Origin: Gracilimonas mengyeensis
Lineage (GTDB): Bacteria > Bacteroidota > Rhodothermia > Balneolales > Balneolaceae
NCBI RefSeq assembly: GCF_900182705.1
Contig: NZ_FXTP01000019.1
Location: 1 to 64,000, forward strand
DNA: 64,000 nt
Reading direction: 5' to 3'
This document shows positions 239-36,836 of this stretch, piece after piece. The notes under the pieces were generated by a model that saw nothing but the letters and a program-made list of their open reading frames with translations, was not told where the DNA came from and did no database searches. The number at the start of each line of letters is the position of its first letter. Position 1 is the stretch's first letter. A program made the position numbers and the translations under genes.

Positions 239-3200
239 ATGGATTTTAATAAGATTGGTGTACTTAGTCTGTTCATATCAATAGTTATTAGTTCGTGGGT
301 ATATGGACAGCAAAAATCAGAGGTTTGGTTCAGAAATTTCGGTCTGGAAGATGGATTGCCTGCCAAGAAAGTTAATGACATAAAACAAGGTTCCGATGGT
401 TTTTTGTGGCTGGCTACCCTAAATGGTTTAGTGCGTTATGACGGTTATGAGTTTAAATCTTTTCGTATTCCCTCTGATAATGGCTTTCCAGTGGGTAATT
501 TTACAGATCGTTTATTGGATGATGAGAATGGAAAGATTTGGGTTGGGTATTATTACAGCAACTACATTGGCTATTATGATACAGAAGAGCATCATTTTGG
601 CTACATAGATTTGGCTGAAAAGCTTAAGCTGGATCAAGAGGCAAGGGCAGTACGTTTATTGGGGACAGATGCCCAACAGAATGTATGGGTTTCTTATTAC
701 CTGAATCTGGAATCGGCTATCATCCTGAAAATTGGTAGCAAAGATTCATCTATTTATCCTTATACGCAGAAGCAGGATTCTGTATTCCCGGTGTCGGATA
801 TTTATGGGGATTATATCCCTCCAAAAAGCTTGCATGTAGCAGAAGACAGTTCCTTATGGATGGGAGCCAACCGAGGCATATTGCACATCACCCCAAAAGA
901 CAGCCTGATTATATTTAATAGCGATGACGAGGATTTGGCAGATCCATATGTGTATAATCTTTTGGAAATGGGAGACGAATTCTGGTTAGCTACCGACAAA
1001 GGATTGATGACATTTGATAAAAACGGCCAACAGTTTAGGCGCATAGAAGCACCTGAACATTTGCAAGAGACTGAGATCATTCATCTTTATAAAGATGAAA
1101 ACGGACTTATATGGATTACCACTGATGAAAGGACCTATCAATATGCGGAGGGTATCTTTAATCGCGTGGAAAGTGAAGAGCTGGAGGCCTTGAACAGTCC
1201 TTCCATGTTGCCACAGGTTGAAGACGAGCGTTATCTATGGTTTATCAATAAGCGGGTGTACGATGCTGGGGTACCCATGACGAATGGTATCACCAGATAC
1301 GACAAGGGATCTGATGTCTATGAAGTCTTCAATTCCAATGAGATAGAAGGATTAGGGAATATCCAATATATCAGCCGGTTGTTTCTGGATCGTAGTGGAT
1401 CATTATGGATTGGAAACTTTTATACCGGATTGTCGCAGTATCCTCCCTATTTTAAAAAATTTGAGACCCATTTTACAGACCCAAATTTTCAGGATTTGGT
1501 TGGCAATTCATTTTATTATCAAGCTGAAACCACGGCAGAGGGACATTATATAGTGGGTACGGGAAATGGGAAGATACTTGTCAGAAATGTTAATACCGGA
1601 GAGGAAAAGATATGGGCAGAGTTGGATCCTCCGGCCTTTGCAGATGGACGAAATCTTGTGTCTGATTTTCTTGCCTTAAAATCCGGAGTGTTGTTGGTTG
1701 CTACTCAAATGACCGGCCTGAAGAGAATCACCTACGATCCCGAGACCCTGGATATACAGGAAATTAAAACCTGGAGTATGGATGAAGTTGGGGTGGGGCG
1801 GTTGAGTAACCTGGTGTATGATGATAAGGGAAATTTATGGGTTACGGGCTTAGGAATAGCGAAGGTTGACTTGGAGGCCAATAGTTTTGAAGCATTTCAT
1901 ACTGTTTCGGAATATGATCCGAGGTATGATTTTGGGGATATTCTGGAAAAAGACAGTGAAGGTAAGTTGTGGTCGTACGGGTTTAATCAAAATGCGATCA
2001 AGCGGTTTGACCCGGTTACCAAAGAGTTGAAGGTGTTTAATTTTCAGGGAACCGTTCCTGAGAAACTAATCATGAATTCTGTGAACAATCATCACGAAAC
2101 ATGGGAGGGAAGACACCTGGTAGTGGCCAATGACTACATCTATGAGCTGAATGAAGAAGCCGGCCGCTTTGAGTTATTTATGGAGAATGAGCTTCCCGAA
2201 CCTATAGATATCGAGCAAACCAAATCCGGTAAAATTATTGTGCTCACGTTCAGCCATGGTTTGTTTGTGATAAACATAGAAACCAAAGAAATCATCAAGC
2301 GCATAAAGCCTGAGGATGGTTTTGCGAGCGGGATAAACAGCGACCTGATGATAGATAAGGCGGGTAATTATTGGCTGCTTAATGCATTGGGTTTATCACG
2401 ATATAATCCTGAAACCGGGGGAATTACCAATTATTATACCGATCAGGGGCTTTTGCCCAGTGAGTCTGAAATCAATTATCATTTTTTGACGAGTGACTCA
2501 ACCACTTATTTTCCAATTTGGATAGGGAACACCGGGGTGGTGTCTTTTAATCCCAATCAGTTACCAACCAACAGCTACAGTCATAGCCCTGTTTTTACCC
2601 AGGTGAGTGCTCAAGACGAACTGCTTGCTGCCTCTGGTGAGGTCGATATTCATCATACCAAAAACAATGTAACGCTTACTTACAGTAACCTGGCTTTTCA
2701 GTATCCTGAGAAATCAGAATATCGGTATGCGATTAATGATGGGGAATGGAGTAACTGGGAGGCATCAAATCAGGCTCGGTTGGCGCAACTCTCACCGGGA
2801 AGCTACACGTTCAAAGTTGAAGCCCGCAATGCCGACCGGATACAGGCCAGTGATGCCGCCATCTATCGTTTTACTATCACACCACCCTGGTATCAAAGTA
2901 CGATAGCTTATTGGTTATATGTCCTTTTTGGGATGAGCGGTTTGATAGCCGCGACTGTTTGGTATTCGAATTTCAGAACCCGGCAAGAGGCCATCAGAAT
3001 GCAGGCTGAACAAGCCGAAGAATTGGCTAAACTGGACCGCATAAAAACGAATTTGCTGACCAATATTTCCCATGAATTGCGTACGCCTCTAACTTTAATC
3101 AATGGATCTATAGAGCAACTAAAAAGCCAGACTGATACTCTTGGCGATGGCTGGCAGCGACGTCTCAATGTTGCCCGCCGAAACGGGGATCGCTTACAGC

Positions 3201-4567
3201 AACTGGTTGAGCAGGTGCTGGATTTGACCCGCCTGGACGCTCAAAAAATGGAATTAGAGCCCAGCAACATAGAGCTGACTTCTCTTCTTTACCGAGTAAC
3301 GGAGTCTTTTGGGAGTATGGCTGAGAGTAAAAATTTGACCATAAAAACCCAGCTTCCTGAACAAGAGTTATGGTTTCAGGCGGATGCCGATAAACTGGAG
3401 AAAATTATTGTAAACTTGCTTTCGAATGCGATTAAGTTCACCCCTAAGGAAGGAACGGTGGAGCTTATCTTAACTAACTACAGGGATGAGCTTAAGATTG
3501 AAATACGGGATACCGGCCGGGGCATAAATAAAGAACAACTTCCTCATATTTTTGATCGGTTTCATTCCACAGCAGATCAAATTGAATATGGAGGAAAGGG
3601 TATTGGTGTTGGACTGGCGATAACCAAAGAATTTGTACAGCAACATGATGGTACGATCTCCGTGGAAAGTCAGCTGGGTAAATGGACGGTTTTTGCGGTG
3701 TTGTTCCCCAAAAAAGACTATGGAAATCAGCTTAAAGTAAGCCCAGATGAGGAAGAGGTTACAGCAGAGACTTTTAAAGAAGAATTTTCTCTGCCAAAAA
3801 TCGAATTGAACGGTGAGCATGAATTTACAGTGTTGTTGGTGGAAGACAATACCGACATGCGCAGCTATATTACCGATCTGCTAAGTACTGAAAATAATTT
3901 GAAGGTAAAGGTTGAAACAGCCGAGAATGGTCTGTCGGGCAAAAAGAAGTTACCGCTTGTTAAACCGGATATTATCATCTCTGATGTCATGATGCCGGAA
4001 ATGGATGGCTTTACTTTTGCAGAAGAAGTGAGGAACATGTCAGATTTTAAATTAACGCCTATTATTTTGCTTTCGGCCCGAGCAGAAGTGGAAGACCGTG
4101 TGAGAGGATATGAAATCGGGGTGAGTGATTATTTGGCAAAACCTTTTAATGCGCAGGAGCTTAAGGCACGCGTTAAAAACCTGCTGCATCTCAGATCCGA
4201 ACGGGAGAAATATCAACAAGAGAATGGGGTGGCAGAGGAGTCGGAAAATATCCCATTAACCTTACAACAGAAATTGCAGGCTTATGTAGAAGACCGGCTG
4301 TCCGATTCCAATATCACCGTTGAGGAGCTGAGCGATCATGTGAATATGAGTCGCCGGCAGTTATACCGTAAGCTAAAAGCCGATACGGGTTATACACCGG
4401 CTGAGTTTATACGGGAAATCAGAATGTACAAAGCGAGGCTAATGCTGGAGGATCATAAAAAAATGACGGTTAGCGAAGTGGGGTATGCAGTAGGATTTAG
4501 GACTCCTTCCTATTTTAGCAAATTATTTAAGGAACGCTTTGGACGGTCACCCTCAGAATACAACTAA
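239..4567 (+). CDS. Hybrid two-component system sensor/AraC-type regulator (HTCS)
   Basis: This 1442-residue one-protein signalling system is of the kind that senses oligosaccharides in the periplasm and activates polysaccharide-utilization genes. A signal peptide (about 1-23) is followed by beta-propeller repeats of the two-component regulator type (repeated W[LI]x[ST] and GLxxY motifs, about 30-780), a Y_Y_Y domain (about 800-870) and a membrane helix near 885-910. The histidine kinase follows, with the H box NISHELRTP and phospho-acceptor His945, and the N box near 1059-1068. A receiver domain has Asp1249 in SDVMMPEMDG, and an AraC-type helix-turn-helix occupies about 1340-1442. All catalytic motifs look intact. 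It lies upstream of the SusC/SusD genes, which suggests it controls them. The inducing sugar cannot be read from sequence. No strong ribosome binding site precedes the ATG. Confidence 0.95.
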   Translation: MDFNKIGVLSLFISIVISSWVYGQQKSEVWFRNFGLEDGLPAKKVNDIKQGSDGFLWLATLNGLVRYDGYEFKSFRIPSDNGFPVGNFTDRLLDDENGKIWVGYYYSNYIGYYDTEEHHFGYIDLAEKLKLDQEARAVRLLGTDAQQNVWVSYYLNLESAIILKIGSKDSSIYPYTQKQDSVFPVSDIYGDYIPPKSLHVAEDSSLWMGANRGILHITPKDSLIIFNSDDEDLADPYVYNLLEMGDEFWLATDKGLMTFDKNGQQFRRIEAPEHLQETEIIHLYKDENGLIWITTDERTYQYAEGIFNRVESEELEALNSPSMLPQVEDERYLWFINKRVYDAGVPMTNGITRYDKGSDVYEVFNSNEIEGLGNIQYISRLFLDRSGSLWIGNFYTGLSQYPPYFKKFETHFTDPNFQDLVGNSFYYQAETTAEGHYIVGTGNGKILVRNVNTGEEKIWAELDPPAFADGRNLVSDFLALKSGVLLVATQMTGLKRITYDPETLDIQEIKTWSMDEVGVGRLSNLVYDDKGNLWVTGLGIAKVDLEANSFEAFHTVSEYDPRYDFGDILEKDSEGKLWSYGFNQNAIKRFDPVTKELKVFNFQGTVPEKLIMNSVNNHHETWEGRHLVVANDYIYELNEEAGRFELFMENELPEPIDIEQTKSGKIIVLTFSHGLFVINIETKEIIKRIKPEDGFASGINSDLMIDKAGNYWLLNALGLSRYNPETGGITNYYTDQGLLPSESEINYHFLTSDSTTYFPIWIGNTGVVSFNPNQLPTNSYSHSPVFTQVSAQDELLAASGEVDIHHTKNNVTLTYSNLAFQYPEKSEYRYAINDGEWSNWEASNQARLAQLSPGSYTFKVEARNADRIQASDAAIYRFTITPPWYQSTIAYWLYVLFGMSGLIAATVWYSNFRTRQEAIRMQAEQAEELAKLDRIKTNLLTNISHELRTPLTLINGSIEQLKSQTDTLGDGWQRRLNVARRNGDRLQQLVEQVLDLTRLDAQKMELEPSNIELTSLLYRVTESFGSMAESKNLTIKTQLPEQELWFQADADKLEKIIVNLLSNAIKFTPKEGTVELILTNYRDELKIEIRDTGRGINKEQLPHIFDRFHSTADQIEYGGKGIGVGLAITKEFVQQHDGTISVESQLGKWTVFAVLFPKKDYGNQLKVSPDEEEVTAETFKEEFSLPKIELNGEHEFTVLLVEDNTDMRSYITDLLSTENNLKVKVETAENGLSGKKKLPLVKPDIIISDVMMPEMDGFTFAEEVRNMSDFKLTPIILLSARAEVEDRVRGYEIGVSDYLAKPFNAQELKARVKNLLHLRSEREKYQQENGVAEESENIPLTLQQKLQAYVEDRLSDSNITVEELSDHVNMSRRQLYRKLKADTGYTPAEFIREIRMYKARLMLEDHKKMTVSEVGYAVGFRTPSYFSKLFKERFGRSPSEYN

Positions 4568-4717
4568 GAATTTTATTCTATGGCACATTTGTTTTAGCAT
4601 AGAAAACAGCCTGTAGAGCATATATGGGCTTTTTTGGGCACAAAAGTTATAGTTTTTGGCACATTCATTCACTGTATGCTTTGTCATCTTAACAGTGAAT
4701 TAAAACACAATTATAGT

Positions 4718-5128
4718 ATGATGAGTGAATGGCTTGAGGTATGGGTAAATGAATTGAATAATGGCCAAAACATATATAGGGATAGTGAGCTTAAGATCTT
4801 ATTGATAATTATCGATCAGCATCTTTCTAATCCTAAGCTCACCGTGGAAATGTTGGCCGGATTATTAGAAATGAGCAGGAGGCAACTGTATAGAAACAGT
4901 GAAAGGTTGCTGGATATTCCACCCGGAAAATTGATTAAAGAAGCTCGTTTGCGAAAAGCCAGATGGCTAATTCGAAAAGGACGTTGTAAAACTACCGGAC
5001 AGGTACTTAATGAAATCGGATTGGGTACCGCAAGGTATTTCGAACAGGAATTCAAAAACCGGTTTGAGGTGTATCCTGAAAATTTATTAACGCAAAATAA
5101 CCAGCTGGCACAGGTTCAGGCACTTTAA
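4718..5128 (+). CDS. Small stand-alone AraC-type DNA-binding protein
   Basis: The product is about 136 residues and consists almost only of an AraC/XylS-type double helix-turn-helix. It shares MSRRQLYR and the following KARW/L pattern with the C-terminal domain of the hybrid sensor just upstream, so it probably arose by partial duplication of that gene. The frame stays open upstream to a TTG at 4634, but I prefer ATG 4718 because the extra 28 residues look like translated leader. The conserved GF of the second helix-turn-helix is replaced by GL, and the spacing differs, so DNA binding may be altered. No sensing domain is present. It could be a small co-regulator or a decaying duplicate. Confidence 0.6.
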   Translation: MMSEWLEVWVNELNNGQNIYRDSELKILLIIIDQHLSNPKLTVEMLAGLLEMSRRQLYRNSERLLDIPPGKLIKEARLRKARWLIRKGRCKTTGQVLNEIGLGTARYFEQEFKNRFEVYPENLLTQNNQLAQVQAL

Positions 5129-6184
5129 TAACTACTTACGAAATTAGTTTGATTGGCAAGCTTTTGAAAAAATTCCAAAAGGTGAGCTAACGCGGGGTGC
5201 AAACTATTCATCAAGTTAAGAGAGCTGCTTATGGGATTGACCAAAAATGGCTGCTGCAATTACATCCGGATACACAAGGTTTTGGGTGGGTACAGATGGT
5301 CCGGTATTGAATTGCATAGCGAACGGGGTAATCTCAAGGCGATGATGCAGGCATTCTGTCGGGAGCAATTTTAGTGCTCCCGGCACGGATGTCTCTATCT
5401 AATCAATTAATTACATGCAGTTATAACCTTCTTAAAAATGGACTTTTAATGCCAGCTTAGTGTTAAAAATATTTGGCGGGGAAAGTGTACTGATAAATAA
5501 AGCTTCTGCTATGCCCTGCACCGTTAAGGCAGCATCGGATGTTACGGTTAATGCCCTCTAAAAAGCACCAGAATTTTAAAACCAGTTTGTTCAAGGCCGT
5601 GTAGTTAAATCTGTTAGCGTGCTAAAGGTTAGGAATGATATCCGCAGTTAGCTAGACAAAAGTGATAGTTATAGGCTAAAAAAAGGCAGGGCGCATAATA
5701 TGAAAGAGTATGATGAATGAAGGTGTAGATTTTGTAAGACTCAGGAAGGTCAAGTTCGTCCCGTAGGTGGTTCTATTGTACGGTTACAAGCATTTAGTTA
5801 CAGAGGACAAAAGGTGATGACTTGCCAAAAATGCCGCCAAAAAATGAAACTGAAAGATAGGAGTAAACCATCTGAAACAGATGGAGGGAATGGAAGTTCA
5901 TATCACAAGAAATTGGATGAGTTAGCGAGATTTTGAAAAACATGAGTAAAGAATAATAAAGGCTTTTTGAATAATCTATTTTCCTTGAAGTTGATTGTGG
6001 ATAATGCTTGGCTATAAGTGGTCTAAGCTTTGGTCCCCATTTTAGTCCGCCAGACAGGGCCTTCCAGTTAGGATATTTCCTTTTTAAAATATTTGATTTT
6101 TCGTTTATGCTGATATTCGATAAGTTTTAAAAAGCATCCTTAATAAAATCTTACTAATTATATTTTTTCGATAATGAGAGCCTG
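5129..6184. other. About 1 kb without an intact gene
   Basis: The stretch contains only short open frames apart from the interrupted zinc-ribbon gene at 5700-5936. One 47-codon frame from an ATG near 5230 resembles nothing I know. The base composition and broken frames suggest eroded coding DNA between the AraC-type gene and the sigma factor. Confidence 0.5.
5700..5936 (+). pseudogene. Small zinc-ribbon protein gene interrupted by an in-frame TGA
   Basis: From ATG 5700 the frame reads MKEYDE, then TGA at 5718-5720, then runs open for 71 codons to a TGA at 5934-5936. The open part carries two CxxC pairs (CRFC and CQKC, about 34 residues apart), the layout of a four-cysteine zinc ribbon, followed by a lysine-rich tail. 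A TGG to TGA change would explain the stop, since tryptophan just before the first CxxC is common in zinc ribbons. No ribosome binding site or alternative ATG lies between the stop and the first CxxC. The family is not recognised. A sequencing error at one base would make it an intact 78-residue gene. Confidence 0.45.
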
Positions 6185-6838
6185 ATGGATTCAAAGAAAG
6201 CTTTAAAACATGCCTGGGAAAACTTCGTGGGGGGAGATGAAGCTTCTTTTGAAACCGTCTACAAAGGCTATTACGGCTCTTTGTTTGCATATGGCATTAA
6301 GCTGAACAACCAATCGGAGATCGTAAAAGATTGTATTCACGATTTGTTTAAGAATATCTGGGAGCGAAGAAAGGAGCTGGAGCATATTCATTCCCCAAAT
6401 GTGTATTTGTTTGTGTCTTTACGCCGAAAAATCCTGAAAAGGGTTAAAGCGGAACGGGAGAAACGGGGCGATTTTAGTGAAACAGATGGAAGCGTTTTTA
6501 CGGAGTTCTCGAAAGAGGATTTCATTATTCGGGATGAGATCAGGCGAGAGCAGAGAGAGCAATTAGAGCATGCTTTAAATCAATTATCCAACCGCCAAAG
6601 AGAGGTTATATATCTGCATTTCTACAACGGGATGAGCTACGGCGAGATTGAGCAAATACTATCCATCAACCGGCAGTCGGTGCGTAACCATGTATTTGGT
6701 GCCATGCAAACCTTACGCTCTTTATTGGATCAGCATTTTATGAAACTGGTTATTTCTTTGCTGCTTACGCTTACGTTTCTCAATGGCTCTTCGTTTTTTT
6801 TTTTTTTGGATAGATTTATCCTCCCATGTATAAATTAA
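6185..6838 (+). CDS. ECF-type RNA polymerase sigma-70 factor (FecI/RpoE-like)
   Basis: This alternative sigma factor is predicted to transcribe the transport genes that follow when released by the FecR-type protein encoded at 7709-8782. Region 2 is recognisable at about 25-95 (DCIHDLFKNIWERRKEL) and region 4 at about 125-185 (LSNRQREVIYLHFYNGMSYGEI, with the helix-turn-helix ending SINRQSVRNHVFGAM; key residues only). The C-terminus is odd: after the helix-turn-helix comes a hydrophobic stretch (MKLVISLLLTLTFL) and then four Phe encoded by a run of 14 T at 6794-6807. A membrane-associated tail is possible. The last residues depend on the exact T count. The usual close spacing to fecR is replaced by 870 bp of repeats. 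Confidence 0.9.
   Translation: MDSKKALKHAWENFVGGDEASFETVYKGYYGSLFAYGIKLNNQSEIVKDCIHDLFKNIWERRKELEHIHSPNVYLFVSLRRKILKRVKAEREKRGDFSETDGSVFTEFSKEDFIIRDEIRREQREQLEHALNQLSNRQREVIYLHFYNGMSYGEIEQILSINRQSVRNHVFGAMQTLRSLLDQHFMKLVISLLLTLTFLNGSSFFFFLDRFILPCIN
6794..6807 (+). repeat. Homopolymer run of 14 T inside the sigma factor gene
   Basis: The run lies in the last 50 bases of the ECF sigma gene. Loss of one T would replace the final residues with WIDLSSHV, and loss of two would stop translation directly after the Phe codons. It could be a slippage site or an assembly uncertainty. Confidence 0.8.
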
Positions 6839-6925
6839 TGTGAGTTCGTGATTAAGTTAATTACTATGGCCTGAAGTCTGGCATTATTATCGTTGAAGTG
6901 GAGATAATATTTGGAACTCATTTGA

Positions 6926-29970: not shown

Positions 29971-30723
29971 ATGTTTAAACGATTTATACGTGCTATAAAG
30001 TCTATGTTCGGCGGTTTGGTAAGCTCAATGGAGGATCCAAAGTTGATCCTGGAGCAGAATATCCGGGACATGAATGACCAAATTCCCCAGATGAACGAAA
30101 ACATAGCTACGGTGAAAGCCAACAAGCTGATGCTTGAAAAAGAGCTGAAGCGAAATGAAAAAGCTATTCAGGATCTGACGGCAAAAGTGAAGTCAGCCAT
30201 CCAGGCTAACCGTGACGATATCGCCGAAGGCTATGCACTCCAGCTGGAGAAAGCCAAAGAGAATTTCGAGCACACCAAGGAGCAACTTGCTTTTGCTGAC
30301 AGAGCCTACGAAAAGGCTATCAAGGTGAAGAAAGTGTTCATGAAAGAGAAAGACCGCAAGATTCAGGAAGCCAAAGAAGCCTTACGTGCCAGTGAGCGTT
30401 CTGAATGGCAGGCCAAAATTGCGGATACGCTGGAACAGTTTGAAGTGGGCGGTGTAGATCAGACTCATGATGAGATGATTACCCGGTTAAATGAACGCTC
30501 GGCTAAAAACGAAGCCCGTATGGAAATTGCACTAGACAGCATCGATACAGAGACCATGGAAATTGAAGCTAATGCTGAAAAAATCCGTGCAAAATCGTTG
30601 GTTGAGCAGTTTAAAATGGAGATGGGAGAGAACAGCGGCTCTATCAATATAGATGAAGAAGCACCCGCCAAAGAAAAAGACTCCTCCAAAACCATTGGAA
30701 ATAAAGAAAAAAGCAGTTCATAG
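29971..30723 (+). CDS. pspA: PspA/IM30 family membrane-remodelling protein
   Basis: This 250-residue coiled-coil protein belongs to the bacterial ESCRT-III superfamily that coats and repairs the inner membrane under stress. The start MFKRFIRAIKSMFGGLVSSMEDPKLILEQ has the amphipathic first helix and the conserved EDP motif. Long helices follow to about 205, with a low-complexity tail ending KTIGNKEKSSS. The classic PspBC sensors and PspF are absent. Two more coiled-coil genes follow closely (9-base gap, then a 4-base overlap), forming an operon, and an AAA ATPase lies 3.6 kb downstream. Confidence 0.92.
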   Translation: MFKRFIRAIKSMFGGLVSSMEDPKLILEQNIRDMNDQIPQMNENIATVKANKLMLEKELKRNEKAIQDLTAKVKSAIQANRDDIAEGYALQLEKAKENFEHTKEQLAFADRAYEKAIKVKKVFMKEKDRKIQEAKEALRASERSEWQAKIADTLEQFEVGGVDQTHDEMITRLNERSAKNEARMEIALDSIDTETMEIEANAEKIRAKSLVEQFKMEMGENSGSINIDEEAPAKEKDSSKTIGNKEKSSS

Positions 30724-30732
30724 GAGCACACC

Positions 30733-31197
30733 ATGAGCAGCAAAAGTGAAAAAGAACGCGAACGCCTCAAAGAGGAATACAAAGATCACTACCGGCGCAT
30801 AAAAGAAGCCAAGGAAAAGCTTCGCCGAGCCGAGCAGAAAGGCAAGATTTCGCAGGCCGTGCAAAATATGAATGCGGATAACTTGCTTGAGTCAGTCGAT
30901 GAATTCCTTGGTAAGGTCCGGGAAAAGGTTACACATGTAGAGGCACGCCTCGATGTTGCAATGGATAACCTTGAAGATGAAGATACCGCTGCCGGCCAAA
31001 AAGTTAAGCAAGAGGAGCTCGATGAAGAACTGAAAAAGCAACGGGCGAAGCAAACTCTGAAGCAGGTTAAGGCTGAAATGGGCATGCTCTACAGCGAGAT
31101 TGAAAAGCATGCTGAAGAAATCCATACCGAGAAAACCATAGGCAGTAAAAAGCCCGGTTCTGATAAACAAGACCCTTCAACAGAAGAAAATTCATGA
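30733..31197 (+). CDS. Coiled-coil protein related to the C-terminal half of PspA
   Basis: The 154-residue, highly charged helical protein has no membrane segment. Its residues from about 62 on (VEARLDVAMDNLEDEDTAAG, then QTLKQVKAEMG and EKTIGSKKPGS) line up with PspA of the preceding gene (NEARMEIALDSIDTE, then SLVEQFKMEMG and SKTIGNKEKSS), in the same order. It therefore looks like a paralogue that kept only the later helices of PspA. It could co-assemble with or cap the PspA polymer. The family is not otherwise recognised. It overlaps the next gene by four bases (ATGA). Confidence 0.8.
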   Translation: MSSKSEKERERLKEEYKDHYRRIKEAKEKLRRAEQKGKISQAVQNMNADNLLESVDEFLGKVREKVTHVEARLDVAMDNLEDEDTAAGQKVKQEELDEELKKQRAKQTLKQVKAEMGMLYSEIEKHAEEIHTEKTIGSKKPGSDKQDPSTEENS

Positions 31198-32078
31198 ACG
31201 AAGAACTCAACATCAATTACACGCGCGAAGCCTTCATGAATCCCATTAACCTGGGAGTACTGTTGGTAGCTACACTGACAGCCTTTTTCATGACCGGCAT
31301 GGGTGATGTATCCAGCTTGCTGCTTACCACCGTTTTTGGCGTTGAGTTAATGTACCTGGGGATCGTACCCAAACTTCCCCGTTTCCGGAAAAAACTGGAG
31401 CTGAAGAAAATTAAAGAGCGTCATGCGGCTAATAATGAGAAGGAACTTTTCCAGTCGTTGGATAATAAATCCCAGAAACGATTCTTGGTTTTAAAACACC
31501 TTGCCAAGCTGGTGCAGGAAAATTTTGAAAAATTACCTTACAGTTCGCAGGGTTTGCTGGATAACATTGGGAAGAAAATTGATGAGCTGCTCAGCAATTA
31601 TTTGACGTTACTGGACTTAATCAAGCGCTACGAAGTCTACCTCAATACTTCGCTGGAAAGTAACCTGAAAGAAGAGGTGAAGCGGCAGATTGAGGAAATT
31701 AGAACACTGGAATCTGAAAAACTGAAGCGCACAAAAGCCCGGCGCGTTGCTATCATGCAGAAGCGATTAAAGAAATTCAGCGTAGCCAAAGAAAAATATT
31801 TGGTGTGTGAAACGCACCTGGAAACTATTGAAGATGCCGTACGCTACATTTACGAGCAATCTATGACCATGAGCAACCCCGAAGAAATAGGGTTCCAGCT
31901 GGATAACTTGCTAAATGAAGTGGAAGAAACTTCGCAATTGATTGACGACTTAGATCAGGATATTTTACCGGAGTACACCGCCGAGTGGGAAACCGAACTG
32001 GATTTTGATTCCATATTGGATGATCTCTCGGACGATGTAAAATCGGAAATCAAACCTGCCAATAAAGTCAAAGAATAA
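31194..32078 (+). CDS. Membrane-anchored coiled-coil protein of the PspA operon
   Basis: The 294-residue protein has two closely spaced hydrophobic segments (about 19-33, INLGVLLVATLTAFF, and about 40-58, SSLLLTTVFGVELMYLGIV) and then a long cytoplasmic helical region (about 65-270) ending in an acidic tail. It resembles a membrane adaptor for a coiled-coil scaffold. Given its neighbours, it is a plausible anchor for PspA-type polymers. No known family was recognised. The enoyl-CoA hydratase start follows the stop with no gap. Confidence 0.75.
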   Translation: MNEELNINYTREAFMNPINLGVLLVATLTAFFMTGMGDVSSLLLTTVFGVELMYLGIVPKLPRFRKKLELKKIKERHAANNEKELFQSLDNKSQKRFLVLKHLAKLVQENFEKLPYSSQGLLDNIGKKIDELLSNYLTLLDLIKRYEVYLNTSLESNLKEEVKRQIEEIRTLESEKLKRTKARRVAIMQKRLKKFSVAKEKYLVCETHLETIEDAVRYIYEQSMTMSNPEEIGFQLDNLLNEVEETSQLIDDLDQDILPEYTAEWETELDFDSILDDLSDDVKSEIKPANKVKE

Positions 32079-32861
32079 ATGATTAAGCAAGATTTCGAAA
32101 CGCTGCTACTCGCAATCGACGATGACGGCATTTGTACGCTTACCATTAACCGTCCTGAAAAACTAAATGCACTCAATAATTTGGTTTTAGAGGAGCTGGA
32201 CGAAGCCTTTGATGCCATTAACGAAGAATATAAAATCAGGGCGGTGGTGATTACCGGGGCTGGCGAAAAAGCTTTTGTTGCCGGAGCTGATATCAAGGAG
32301 TTAAGCACACTCGATCCTGCTTCAGGAGAAAAAGTATCTAAAAAAGGGCAGGATATCTTTCAGAAAATAGAAGATATGACCATACCGGTGATTGCGGCCG
32401 TGAACGGCTATGCTTTAGGTGGAGGTTGTGAACTCGCACTTGGGTGTCATTTACGCATTGCTTCAACAAATGCTGCTATGGGACTTCCAGAGGTATCGCT
32501 TGGGTTGATCCCGGGATACGGAGGCACACAACGTCTTACCCAGGCTGTAGGGAAAGCCAAAGCCCTGGAATGCATCATGACCGGACGACAAATTAAAGCC
32601 GATGAAGCATTTGAAATCGGTTTGGTAAACCAGGTTGTGGATGGTAATCCGGTGGAAGAAGCTAAGGCCATGCTTCAAAAAATATTAAAACAGGGTCCGG
32701 TAGCTATAAAAAATGCCATTCTCGCTGTAAATGAGGCAGGAACTGAAGACGGCTTTGAAACAGAAGCTAAATTATTTGGAGAATTGTGCGGTACCGCCGA
32801 TTTTAAGGAAGGAACGACGGCTTTCCTTGAAAAACGAAAGCCCAACTTTTCTGGTAAATAA
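32079..32861 (+). CDS. Enoyl-CoA hydratase/isomerase (crotonase family)
   Basis: The 260-residue crotonase hydrates 2-enoyl-CoA esters, for example in fatty-acid or amino-acid breakdown. The oxyanion-hole motifs AGADIKEL (about 68-75) and GGGCELALGCHLRIAS (about 108-123), and the catalytic Glu of LPEVSLGLIPGYGGTQRL (about 130-147), are all present. It starts one base after the membrane coiled-coil gene, so it shares its message, although no functional link to PspA is known. Confidence 0.92.
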   Translation: MIKQDFETLLLAIDDDGICTLTINRPEKLNALNNLVLEELDEAFDAINEEYKIRAVVITGAGEKAFVAGADIKELSTLDPASGEKVSKKGQDIFQKIEDMTIPVIAAVNGYALGGGCELALGCHLRIASTNAAMGLPEVSLGLIPGYGGTQRLTQAVGKAKALECIMTGRQIKADEAFEIGLVNQVVDGNPVEEAKAMLQKILKQGPVAIKNAILAVNEAGTEDGFETEAKLFGELCGTADFKEGTTAFLEKRKPNFSGK

Positions 32862-34341: not shown

Positions 34342-36054
34342 ATGTTCGATCACTATCCCAAATGGTCCCAGGAATTTGCCAGAAAGTATCTCAGCCGTAC
34401 CATCAACCAGTTTATTTTGCATGGAAACGTCCATGATCTGGTTCCGCTCAAAGAAGAGAATGGTACCAAGTTCAACCGCCTGAAATCATTTTTGGCGGAT
34501 GAGTTTTTCGGAGCCCGTGATTTCGTGATTTTTTATGATCGGGCTTCCGGTATCTATTTTCGGGATAAGGAATCGCAGGCAGATTTTAACCAAGCCATTG
34601 CCGGTCGTGATAGCCTGGTAGGGACCGAATATGCTCAGAAGATGCCTAAGGACCCTGTGCGTGTGATGTCGCTGCTGGAGCAGTATTTCCGCCTGCGGCT
34701 GGATCAAAAGAAAAGCGTGGGACTTATCATTGATTATGCGGAAACGATTGTGCCCATGAGCGATGCGGCCTCTATTGGCAACGAAGACCGTACGTCACTG
34801 GTGTATCTTTCCCGCTGGGCTCACGACCCAATGTTTTTGGCTTCTGATTTTACTACGGTGCTCATCACTGAAAACCTGGCTGACCTGAACAAGACGCTGG
34901 TGCAAAATCCCTATACCACCGATATCAAAATTAATATTCCAGGTGAAAACGATCGCTTGAAGTTTATCCAGTTTGAAACGGAGAAGGATAGCTGGGAAGA
35001 TTTATCGGAAGTAAAGCCAGAGATTGTGGCCCAGCAGACCGCGGGTTTGAATTTGGTAAATATCCGAAGTGTACTGTCTAATGCCCGCGAGAACAAAGAG
35101 AAAATCACTTTTGAAGGACTTTCTGAAGCTAAGAAGGAGCTGATTGAAGCCGAGGCCTATGGACTGCTGGAATTCGTGGAAACGCACTACACGCTGGATA
35201 ATGTAGCCGGACACAAGCAAGTGAAGTCACACCTGCGTCAGGCGGTTAAGGCATTGAAAGCCGGCCGGCAGGATGTAATGCCCATGGGCTATTTGGTATG
35301 CGGTCCAGTGGGAACCGGGAAGACCTTTTTGGTGACCTGCTTTGCCAGTGAGGTTGGAATTCCGATGGTAAAACTCAAAAACTTCCGAAGCCAATGGCAG
35401 GGCGTTACCGAGGGTAATCTCGAGAAAATACTTTCCCTGCTTAAAGCCATGGCACCTGTAGCCGTGATGATCGACGAAGCCGATGCCTACCTTGGCGATC
35501 GCGATGCCAGCGGTGACAGTGGCGTTTCTAGCCGGGTATTCTCGCAAATAGCTACTTTTATGAGTGACACGGCTAACCGTGGACGCATTGTCTGGTTCCT
35601 CATGACCGCCCGCCCCGATTTAATGCCGGTGGATTTGAAGCGTCAGGGTCGTGCTGAAGAGCACCTTGCATTATTTCCTCCCCACACCGAAGAAGAACGG
35701 GTGGAATTATTTGAAGCTATGGCCAAGAAAACCGGCCTGACTTTATCCGAAGAATACATCCCAAAATTGATAGAGAAAGGCGAGAAAACCTTTTCCGGCG
35801 CCGATATGGAAGCGGCTCTGACACGAGCCAAATTCCGGGCTGCTTCGGCCAACGAAGAGGCTGTCACACCGGAAATCCTGGATGCGGCCCTGGCTGATTT
35901 TCTGCCGCCTACTTATCCTGAAGAGGTAGAATTGCAGACACTAAGTGCGGTAATCGAATGTACTTCTAAGGAATTATTGCCTGAACGCTATCGGGATATG
36001 GACCGGGATGATATCCTATCTACCATTGAGGAACTGAAATTCCGGGTAGGATAA
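34342..36054 (+). CDS. AAA ATPase with degenerate N-terminal AAA-like half
   Basis: The C-terminal half is an active AAA module: Walker A GPVGTGKT at 321-328, Walker B AVMIDEADAY near 374-383, a sensor segment MTARPD and the RQGRAEEHL region. Residues 1-270 resemble a second AAA core that lacks a P-loop but keeps Walker B-like and sensor-like strands (SVGLIIDYAETIVP and FTTVLITENLADL). This two-part architecture, with HGNVHDLV near the start, is similar to Ycf46-like ATPases. At 570 residues it could be a remodelling motor. Its proximity to a PspA-type polymer gene invites comparison with Vps4 and ESCRT-III, but that is inference. Confidence 0.88.
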   Translation: MFDHYPKWSQEFARKYLSRTINQFILHGNVHDLVPLKEENGTKFNRLKSFLADEFFGARDFVIFYDRASGIYFRDKESQADFNQAIAGRDSLVGTEYAQKMPKDPVRVMSLLEQYFRLRLDQKKSVGLIIDYAETIVPMSDAASIGNEDRTSLVYLSRWAHDPMFLASDFTTVLITENLADLNKTLVQNPYTTDIKINIPGENDRLKFIQFETEKDSWEDLSEVKPEIVAQQTAGLNLVNIRSVLSNARENKEKITFEGLSEAKKELIEAEAYGLLEFVETHYTLDNVAGHKQVKSHLRQAVKALKAGRQDVMPMGYLVCGPVGTGKTFLVTCFASEVGIPMVKLKNFRSQWQGVTEGNLEKILSLLKAMAPVAVMIDEADAYLGDRDASGDSGVSSRVFSQIATFMSDTANRGRIVWFLMTARPDLMPVDLKRQGRAEEHLALFPPHTEEERVELFEAMAKKTGLTLSEEYIPKLIEKGEKTFSGADMEAALTRAKFRAASANEEAVTPEILDAALADFLPPTYPEEVELQTLSAVIECTSKELLPERYRDMDRDDILSTIEELKFRVG

Positions 36055-36218: not shown

Positions 36219-36836
36219 ATGACCAGCGTAATCACCGGAGATATCATCAATTCCCGAAATACGGAAGCCGAAAAGTGGCTAAAGCCGTTGAAAGAGGCTT
36301 TGGATGAAATTGGTTCACCCCCAAAAAGTTGGGAAATTTACCGGGGAGATAGTTTCCAAGCTGAAATTTTAAATCCCCTGGATGCCCTGCAGCATTCCAT
36401 AGCCATAAAAGCTGCAGTAAAGCAAGTAAAGGGCGTTGATGTACGGATGTGTATAGGGATCGGTAAAAAGGAATTTGATGCCGCAACCATTAACGAATCA
36501 AACGGGGAGGCTTTTATACGCTCGGGGGAAGGCTACGAACAGCTATCATCCCAGAAGCAGAACCTGATGGTGAAAACAGCAGATGAAGCCTTTGATGAAG
36601 AGATAAACCTATACCTGAGGCTGCTACTGGTGGCAATGGATAACTGGACGCCGAAATCAGCAGAATACGTACGGCTGAATTTTACCGGGGATTTGAAGCA
36701 AGAAGAAATAGCTAAGAAGCTGGGCATTACGCAATCGTCAGTAAGTGAGAGGCACAAGCGGGCGTACTTGGAGGAAGTTCGGGCGGTGATAAATCGCTAT
36801 CGCAAAAAAACAGAAGCATTAGGTTATGAGAGATGA
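36219..36836 (+). CDS. SatD family protein with C-terminal helix-turn-helix
   Basis: The 205-residue protein begins with the SatD signature MTSVITGDIINSR and has the GDSFQAEI and GIGKKEFDAATINESNGEAF-type blocks, where residues resemble a nucleotide cyclase-like fold. A sigma-region-4-like helix-turn-helix follows (about 163-195, KQEEIAKKLGITQSSVSER). SatD was first named in the sat operon of Streptococcus mutans, and its biochemical role is unknown. It overlaps the DUF3307 gene by four bases (ATGA), so the two are coupled. The repeat-rich leader suggests feedback control. Confidence 0.85.
   Translation: MTSVITGDIINSRNTEAEKWLKPLKEALDEIGSPPKSWEIYRGDSFQAEILNPLDALQHSIAIKAAVKQVKGVDVRMCIGIGKKEFDAATINESNGEAFIRSGEGYEQLSSQKQNLMVKTADEAFDEEINLYLRLLLVAMDNWTPKSAEYVRLNFTGDLKQEEIAKKLGITQSSVSERHKRAYLEEVRAVINRYRKKTEALGYER

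Follow-up and report, generated by a model that had tools for sequence, protein, structure and literature searches.

The DNA analyzed here (the window) comprises positions 1 to 64,000 of the forward strand of contig NZ_FXTP01000019.1 (assembly GCF_900182705.1) from Gracilimonas mengyeensis, a member of the order Balneolales in the class Rhodothermia, phylum Bacteroidota. It carries the gene pspA for an ESCRT-III-like protein, two short genes directly behind it that we call O2 and O3, and further downstream a gene for a tandem AAA+ ATPase. PspA and O2 end in a common short motif, and the presence of this tail motif tracks the ATPase.

The pspA-O2-O3 genes and the ATPase

The features on which the argument rests all lie on the forward strand. 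Lengths are in amino acids (aa), and structure models were made with AlphaFold2 (AF2).

29971..30723, + strand: pspA, encoding an ESCRT-III-like PspA/IM30 protein of 250 aa, divergent type (PF04012; same order in relatives)
30688..30702, + strand: KTIGN tail motif of PspA (pattern match; conserved in relatives)
30733..31197, + strand: O2, a 154-aa partial PspA paralogue with alpha3, alpha4, alpha5 and a disordered tail (BLASTP, hhalign, AF2)
31132..31146, + strand: KTIGS tail motif of O2 (pattern match; conserved in O2 tails)
31194..32078, + strand: O3, 294 aa, putative membrane anchor (AF2, profile comparison, conservation)
34342..36054, + strand: tandem AAA+ ATPase, 570 aa, proposed polymer remodeler (PF00004, 83.8 bits at 318-442)
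35302..35325, + strand: Walker A motif (GPVGTGKT) of the ATPase, codons 321-328 (invariant alignment columns)

A gap of 9 bases separates pspA from O2, and O2 overlaps O3 by 4 bases. A sequence-only reading of the window had described these three open reading frames and the overlap, and both descriptions hold. The ATPase gene begins 2.3 kb downstream of O3 on the same strand. The window PspA scored 69.1 bits against PF04012, above the cut-off of 33.9, and was the single match to this family in its genome. Against the TIGR02977 equivalog it scored 27.7 bits and did not reach the cut-off of 242.95. Judged by these scores, it is a divergent PspA and not one of the classical TIGR02977 type.

PspA and O2 have a common tail motif that tracks the ATPase

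The C-terminal end of the window PspA reads SSKTIGNKEKSSS, and the O2 tail holds EKTIGSKK. The pairing of EKTIGSK with SKTIGNK, picked out in the sequence-only reading, is therefore real, and both proteins end in the common motif K-[T/S/E/D/Q]-[I/L/M/V]-G. The last 45 residues were searched for a strict form, K[TS][ILVM]G, and for a broad form, [KR][TSEDQ][ILVM]G, which was widened after sequences from other phyla had been viewed. The PspA counts refer to 142 distinct ATPase-bearing cases. Exact duplicates of PspA and loci without PspA on the contig were left out, as were L198 and L200, where the PspA end is masked or frame-broken, and L090 (G016), L133, L138 and L142, which carry the motif and come from incomplete genomes in which the ATPase was not found.

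The motif was present in PspA in 131/142 cases and in PspA or O2 in 142/142, compared with 5.5/142 for shuffled PspA tails. Each of the 11 cases with a motif-less PspA has an O2 with two motif copies. Balneolales PspA from ATPase-bearing genomes carried the strict form in 31/31 cases, and the broad form was found in 41/52 other class loci, 22/22 further class contigs and 37/37 contigs outside the class. The strict form was present in 112/142 PspA overall and in 19/37 outside the class. O2 tails carried the motif in 109/110 cases (not de-duplicated), 28 of them twice; the sole O2 without it, L072, has its frame cut by a stop codon. Loss of the motif from PspA went with a two-copy O2 in 11/11 cases against 14/71, a Fisher comparison that includes unresolved loci and ignores kinship, and the 11 cases belong to roughly a single clade.

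PspA of ATPase-less Balneolales genomes had neither form (strict 0/9, broad 0/9). Nineteen canonical PspA served as further controls, 18 from genomes without such an ATPase and one a paralogue in G106, and gave 0/19 strict and 3/19 broad matches. G106 encodes the ATPase, and there the canonical PspA (L169, G106:C4:3889858-3890544) lacks the motif while the divergent PspA (L125) is tagged with it. Among PspA proteins with widely divergent bodies, the second motif position varies (T, S, E, D or Q), and the basic residue, the aliphatic residue and the glycine are constant. The PspA of L203 (12040-12798) ends KEIGPSEKIGP. Presence of the tail motif tracks the ATPase.

A wider KTIG regulon in the window's genome was considered and rejected. 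The KTIG DNA pattern was not enriched genome-wide (93 matches versus 108 in the reversed control), and no second client was apparent among 30 of the 93 match loci. In frame, 24/30 of these loci read K[TS]IG, several in short open frames near a stop codon.

Two unlike halves of the ATPase

The C-terminal half of the ATPase contains Walker A and Walker B motifs, and its nearest PDB relatives are AAA domains of the Cdc48/p97 type; by sequence this domain looks active. The N-terminal half is without a Walker A motif. When its profile was compared with the PDB, all 60 sequences matched at E<=1 were AAA ATPases, with weak scores (best E 0.002), and the N-terminal half is probably a dead AAA domain. 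Ycf46 was considered as the family name of the ATPase and set aside, as a literature search gave it no support. Directly downstream of the ATPase, at 36219-36836 of the window, lies a gene for a protein of the SatD family whose end resembles sigma-70 region 4; this gene was found in 1/40 Balneolales loci.

O2 is a partial PspA paralogue

In a single BLASTP comparison, O2 aligned with the window PspA at 32% identity over 130 columns (E 4e-13). A profile alignment could have shown O2 to be unrelated to PspA; hhalign placed it on PspA 125-222 with 98.3% probability (E 1.9e-14), the tail lying outside the alignment. By our own assignment in the PspA/Vipp1 nomenclature, this region is the end of alpha3, alpha4 and alpha5. 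The earlier observation that O2 aligns with the later PspA helices is thus borne out. An O2-query search was run on 57 genomes. The matches listed at E<=0.01 were O2 or the pspA immediately upstream, apart from one marginal match in G030 (E 0.007), and the pspA directly upstream was the second match in most O2-bearing genomes. Because of this genome-wide search and of profile controls with O3 (O3 versus PspA 4.3%, O2 versus O3 0.15%), the similarity of O2 to PspA exceeds what coiled-coil composition would give.

The window O2 had no match to PF04012 at E<=1, and the O2 of one relative (G022) scored 19.6 bits, under the cut-off. A profile search of the PDB with O2 found no PspA chains. A search with the O2 model found no PDB chains at E<=10, a result that neither favors nor opposes kinship with PspA.

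The AF2 model of O2 has a mean predicted local distance difference test score (pLDDT) of 76 and a predicted template modeling score of 0.28. It contains helices at 3-45, 48-81 and 87-132, residues 135-154 are disordered with pLDDT under 50, and the KTIG motif lies at 134-137. The alpha1-alpha2/3 hairpin, named as the hallmark of the PspA/IM30 family in PMC8281802, is missing, as the alignment begins near PspA 125 and only three helices are present. O2 is a partial PspA paralogue, consisting of alpha3 to alpha5 and a disordered tail without alpha0 to alpha2. O2 profiles scored medians of 39 and 70 bits on Rhodothermia PspA, 0.1 and -2.5 bits on canonical PspA of other Bacteroidota, and up to 67 bits on PspA from other phyla. 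These scores fit a partial tandem duplication, and the tail may contribute part of them.

O3, a putative membrane anchor

Close to its N-terminus O3 has two hydrophobic helices, followed by a long helical part, in line with the two membrane helices and long coiled coil that the sequence-only reading gave the third protein. Its AF2 model is all-helical, and helices 17-32 and 38-60 are hydrophobic; the assignment of these as putative membrane helices is based on the sequence and the model helices. O3 as a relative of PspA was ruled out by the 4.3% profile probability given above. Pfam returned no family above its cut-off and no Snf7 match. A BAR or ESCRT-III fold was considered for O3, with mixed results. 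Foldseek gave no match to the model at E<=0.001, the top rows being BAR-PH domains at E 0.009 and above. VIA-align returned mixed helical proteins at Z 8-10, many of them BAR-like, and CdvB2 at Z 8.1, which is under the level trusted for helical bundles.

The same reading had proposed that O3 replaces absent PspB and PspC. Neither pspB nor pspC lies alongside pspA here. The premise that PspC is absent was wrong, as two PspC-domain proteins (PF04024, E 1.2e-24 and 6.4e-21) are encoded elsewhere in the genome, at G000:C8:8223-8393 (L277) and G000:C1:186286-186462 (L278), neither adjoining pspA. Because these proteins are present, O3 is not a simple stand-in for PspB and PspC.

Two variant O3 loci were seen. 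G135 (L134) has a tandem pair of O3-like genes at 3028-3888 and 3939-4802. In L268 (CP030887.1, apparently G068, a complete Balneolaceae chromosome) O3 is broken into two frames at 5959-6845, and pspA, O2 and the ATPase look intact despite this.

Conservation and gene order

The set of 57 genomes includes the window genome; ATPase matches in G016 and G024 (29-31% identity) were excluded as other AAA proteins. A separate O2 gene was found in 44 genomes, O3 in 52, a PF04012 match in 53 and an ATPase gene in 43. O2 was present in 43/43 genomes with the ATPase and in 1/14 without a found ATPase. The latter genome, G016, has a completeness of 71%, and its contig breaks off short of the position where the ATPase would lie. 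Nine genomes have PspA without O2; the ATPase was found in 0/9 of these, and O3 is kept in 8, which form family f3. None of the four proteins was found in 4/57 genomes.

Two genes lie between O3 and the ATPase, and both are conserved neighbors.

32079..32861, + strand: enoyl-CoA hydratase gene (PF00378), beginning immediately past the O3 stop codon
32944..34221, + strand: gene for a CNNM/CorC (GldE-like) membrane protein (PF01595, PF03471); 233 bits against TIGR03520, cut-off of 376 not reached

The order thymidine phosphorylase-pspA-O2-O3-hydratase-CNNM-ATPase occurs in 28/40 Balneolales loci. Eight of the remaining 12 are the ATPase-less f3 loci and one has a broken remnant of the ATPase (G012); in G039 and G047 the ATPase is on another contig, and in G016 the contig ends first. 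Among 145 genomes of the class Rhodothermia, the ATPase was found in 135 and O3 in 140; O2-query matches in 141/145 include cross-matches to PspA and are not an O2 count. PspA and O3 stand together in 55 class loci outside Balneolales, with O2 between them in most and in none of families f6 and f18. The order of the three genes pspA, O2 and O3 could have proved unique to the window genome, and it is conserved both in Balneolales and in the wider class. Across 394 genomes from the phylum, the ATPase turned up in 97 (96 class genomes plus G375), and PF04012 matched in 163.

A scan of genome contigs gave 224 relatives of the ATPase, of which the best 80 were considered. Forty-nine of these 80, taken with stretches of up to 9 kb on each side, lie outside Rhodothermia, in Acidobacteria, Planctomycetota, Gemmatimonadetes, Deltaproteobacteria, Binatia, Eisenbacteria, Riflebacteria, Myxococcota and a Chlorobiales genome (contig shared with G375). 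An O3 relative was found in 38 of the 49 loci, a PspA relative in 39, both in 33 and either in 44; among the 5 with neither, several are on short contigs. The end of O3 lies at or just before the ATPase start in about 20 outside loci (open reading frame starts uncurated), and in Myxococcota loci O3 and pspA lie 4-9 kb upstream of the ATPase. The O2 profile found nothing in the outside loci, and O2 was found only in the class. Genetic linkage between the ATPase and PspA and O3 extends across several phyla.

Several Acidobacteria and Planctomycetota loci and the Chlorobiales locus encode a coiled-coil-like protein of 200-236 aa immediately behind the ATPase and in most cases ahead of pspA (L199:10142-10771, L211:10722-11375, L202:6243-6908, L219:10697-11299, L197:10842-11552). 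Two of these proteins, and also the L197 copy, were checked and had no Pfam match over the cut-off. This protein may play the part of O2 in other phyla. Genes that resemble those for NitT/TauT-type ABC ATPases and permeases, NMT1-like proteins and OmpA-like proteins occur near PspA, O3 and the ATPase in L215, L217, L218, L202, L208, L211, L219 and L227; they were called by eye, with an NMT1 Pfam match for one Myxococcota protein (L227).

Losses of the ATPase and the motif

A quick tree built from 104 PspA cores, with tails excluded, shows two changes in the ATPase and four in the PspA motif, and both ATPase losses coincided with loss of the motif. In G012 (L087:4846-5040) an eroded C-terminal remnant of the ATPase, its last 65 codons, persists at the former position just behind the CNNM gene and carries a stop codon. 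This genome has lost O2 and O3, and its PspA tail is short and untagged. G030, a congener, has kept the ATPase, O2, O3 and the motif. In the f3 clade the tail was altered and not deleted; KTVH, KTH or xTVH replaces KTIG/KTVG in several of the eight PspA.

Discussion

On the groundwork of paralogy, conservation, linkage and motif co-occurrence described above, we infer polymer incorporation, docking, disassembly and anchoring in the following form. PspA would polymerize on the membrane, and O2 would join the polymer with its alpha5 laid over the tip of a PspA hairpin. Because O2 has alpha5 and lacks the hairpin and alpha0, it could attach to a PspA hairpin without presenting one of its own; it would then end or space the polymer, or act as a side-bound carrier of tails. 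In either role it would add one or two extra tails. O3 may tether either the assembly or the ATPase to the membrane. The ATPase, for which the dead N-terminal half is a possible docking platform, would bind the disordered KxIG tails of PspA and O2 and pull PspA subunits out in the manner of Vps4, so that the polymer is restructured or dissolved. We give about even chances to the proposal that these genes encode a bacterial ESCRT-III/Vps4-like membrane-remodeling module whose ATPase docks on the motif and remodels the PspA/O2 polymer.

A wider statement is made more tentatively. In several phyla there may be an MIT-free analogue of ESCRT-III/Vps4 in which a tandem AAA+ protein with a dead N-terminal half reads K-x-[ILMV]-G on PspA, and in Rhodothermia O2 may be a dedicated tail donor or polymer end, and the sole carrier of the tag in a lineage whose PspA has lost it. 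Taken jointly, these two parts are a real possibility that falls somewhat short of an even chance. Since a conserved short tail motif tracks a specific ATPase, the docking question can be tested with peptides and with proteins from cultivated genera.

Several observations weigh against this proposal. Pfam gave no match on the ATPase at E<=0.001 to the MIT domain, through which Vps4 docks. The independent ATPase losses number only two (sign test p 0.5), so the joint loss of ATPase and motif is a pattern and not a significant test, and O2 was lost with the ATPase both times and O3 once. The tail remnant in f3 may reflect drift or a new partner. The ATPase and a tagged PspA persist without O2 in families f6 and f18, so O2 is dispensable. 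PspA, O2 or O3 lay within about 8 kb of the ATPase in 0/20 cases from the class outside Balneolales. The three broad matches in canonical PspA count against the specificity of that form, and in our reading they fall inside alpha5. Finally, the motif is present and no ATPase was found in G016, G134, G152 and G161; these assemblies are 71-92% complete in 220-430 contigs, and the missing ATPase probably reflects assembly gaps.

The small number of losses leaves room for another explanation, in which the tails dock some other factor, such as a protease adaptor, a phospho-peptide reader or a chaperone, that is kept or lost with the ATPase, while the ATPase acts on O3 or another client. The two losses on which the joint pattern is built both took O2 as well, and one took O3. 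In many loci outside the class the end of O3 lies at or near the start of the ATPase gene, so O3 may be the main partner of the enzyme. The eight f3 genomes lost the ATPase and the motif and keep O3, which makes O3 unlikely as the partner of the motif. The freedom of T, S, E, D and Q at position 2 also speaks against a strict phospho-threonine reader. We regard this explanation as unlikely, though deserving of attention. An importer-centered scheme seems quite improbable to us. Here PspA, O3 and the ATPase would be a membrane-domain scaffold that organizes or repairs the membrane around a NitT/TauT-type ABC importer. ABC-like, NMT1-like and OmpA-like genes do lie nearby in some loci of Acidobacteria, Planctomycetota, Myxococcota, Eisenbacteria and Deltaproteobacteria, and such operons are described by Ravi et al. 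2024 (PMC11237479), but the seven genes of the Balneolales block include no such transporter genes.

The sequence-only reading took O2 for a truncated PspA paralogue that could cap or regulate PspA polymers, with O3 as the possible membrane anchor; the ATPase would then be a mere genomic neighbor. O2 lacks alpha0 to alpha2 and could donate only alpha5, and pspA, O2 and O3 remain together in class genomes where the ATPase sits elsewhere. Against this, other phyla have the ATPase, O3 and PspA where the O2 profile finds nothing, O2 was found in 43/43 ATPase genomes versus 1/14 without a found ATPase (the incomplete G016), and PspA and O2 have the tail motif in common. The truncated paralogue has thus stood up, and a passive cap alone is incomplete given the ATPase and the motif; we consider it improbable that the ATPase is a bystander. 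The earlier reading missed the downstream ATPase and the weight of the shared motif, which point to energy-driven turnover of the polymer and not only to passive capping.

Comparison with known systems

One protein that serves as an example below, CBH24266.1, presumably comes from Salinibacter. In the main text of Ravi et al. 2024 (PMC11237479), one sentence describes a Bacteroidetes neighborhood of PspA, Snf7 and a PspA-like coiled-coil gene with CBH24266.1 as example, and these are probably the same three genes as pspA, O2 and O3. The same source reports PspA with a transmembrane (TM)-bearing Snf7 homologue and a protein with two AAA+ domains, the N-terminal one inactive (OGG56892.1, AEY64321.1), notes that genes for an ABC transporter, PBP and OmpA sometimes lie beside this set, and suggests ATP-dependent remodeling like that of Snf7/Vps4. 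The window ATPase agrees with this description in its two AAA+ domains, its inactive N-terminal domain and its place near pspA, and we infer that the TM-bearing Snf7 homologue is O3. The association of PspA, Snf7 and the two-AAA+ protein is therefore already in print and is not new. The literature searched, supplements aside, yielded no mention of a tail motif common to PspA and O2, of its disappearance together with the ATPase or of O2 as an alpha3-alpha5 paralogue.

The locus resembles pspABC and clgR-pspAMN in that PspA occurs with membrane partners. It differs from pspABC, as no pspB or pspC adjoins pspA and O3 has no Pfam family over the cut-off. In the ESCRT-III/Vps4/CdvC systems the polymer protein belongs to the Snf7 branch, whereas here it is of the PspA branch, and the ATPase has a degenerate AAA-like half in place of the MIT domain, which was not found. 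The tail motif is presumably unlike MIM motifs. The likeness to these systems lies in the gene linkage of a superfamily polymer protein with a classic AAA ATPase, and in short C-terminal polymer tails proposed to recruit the ATPase.

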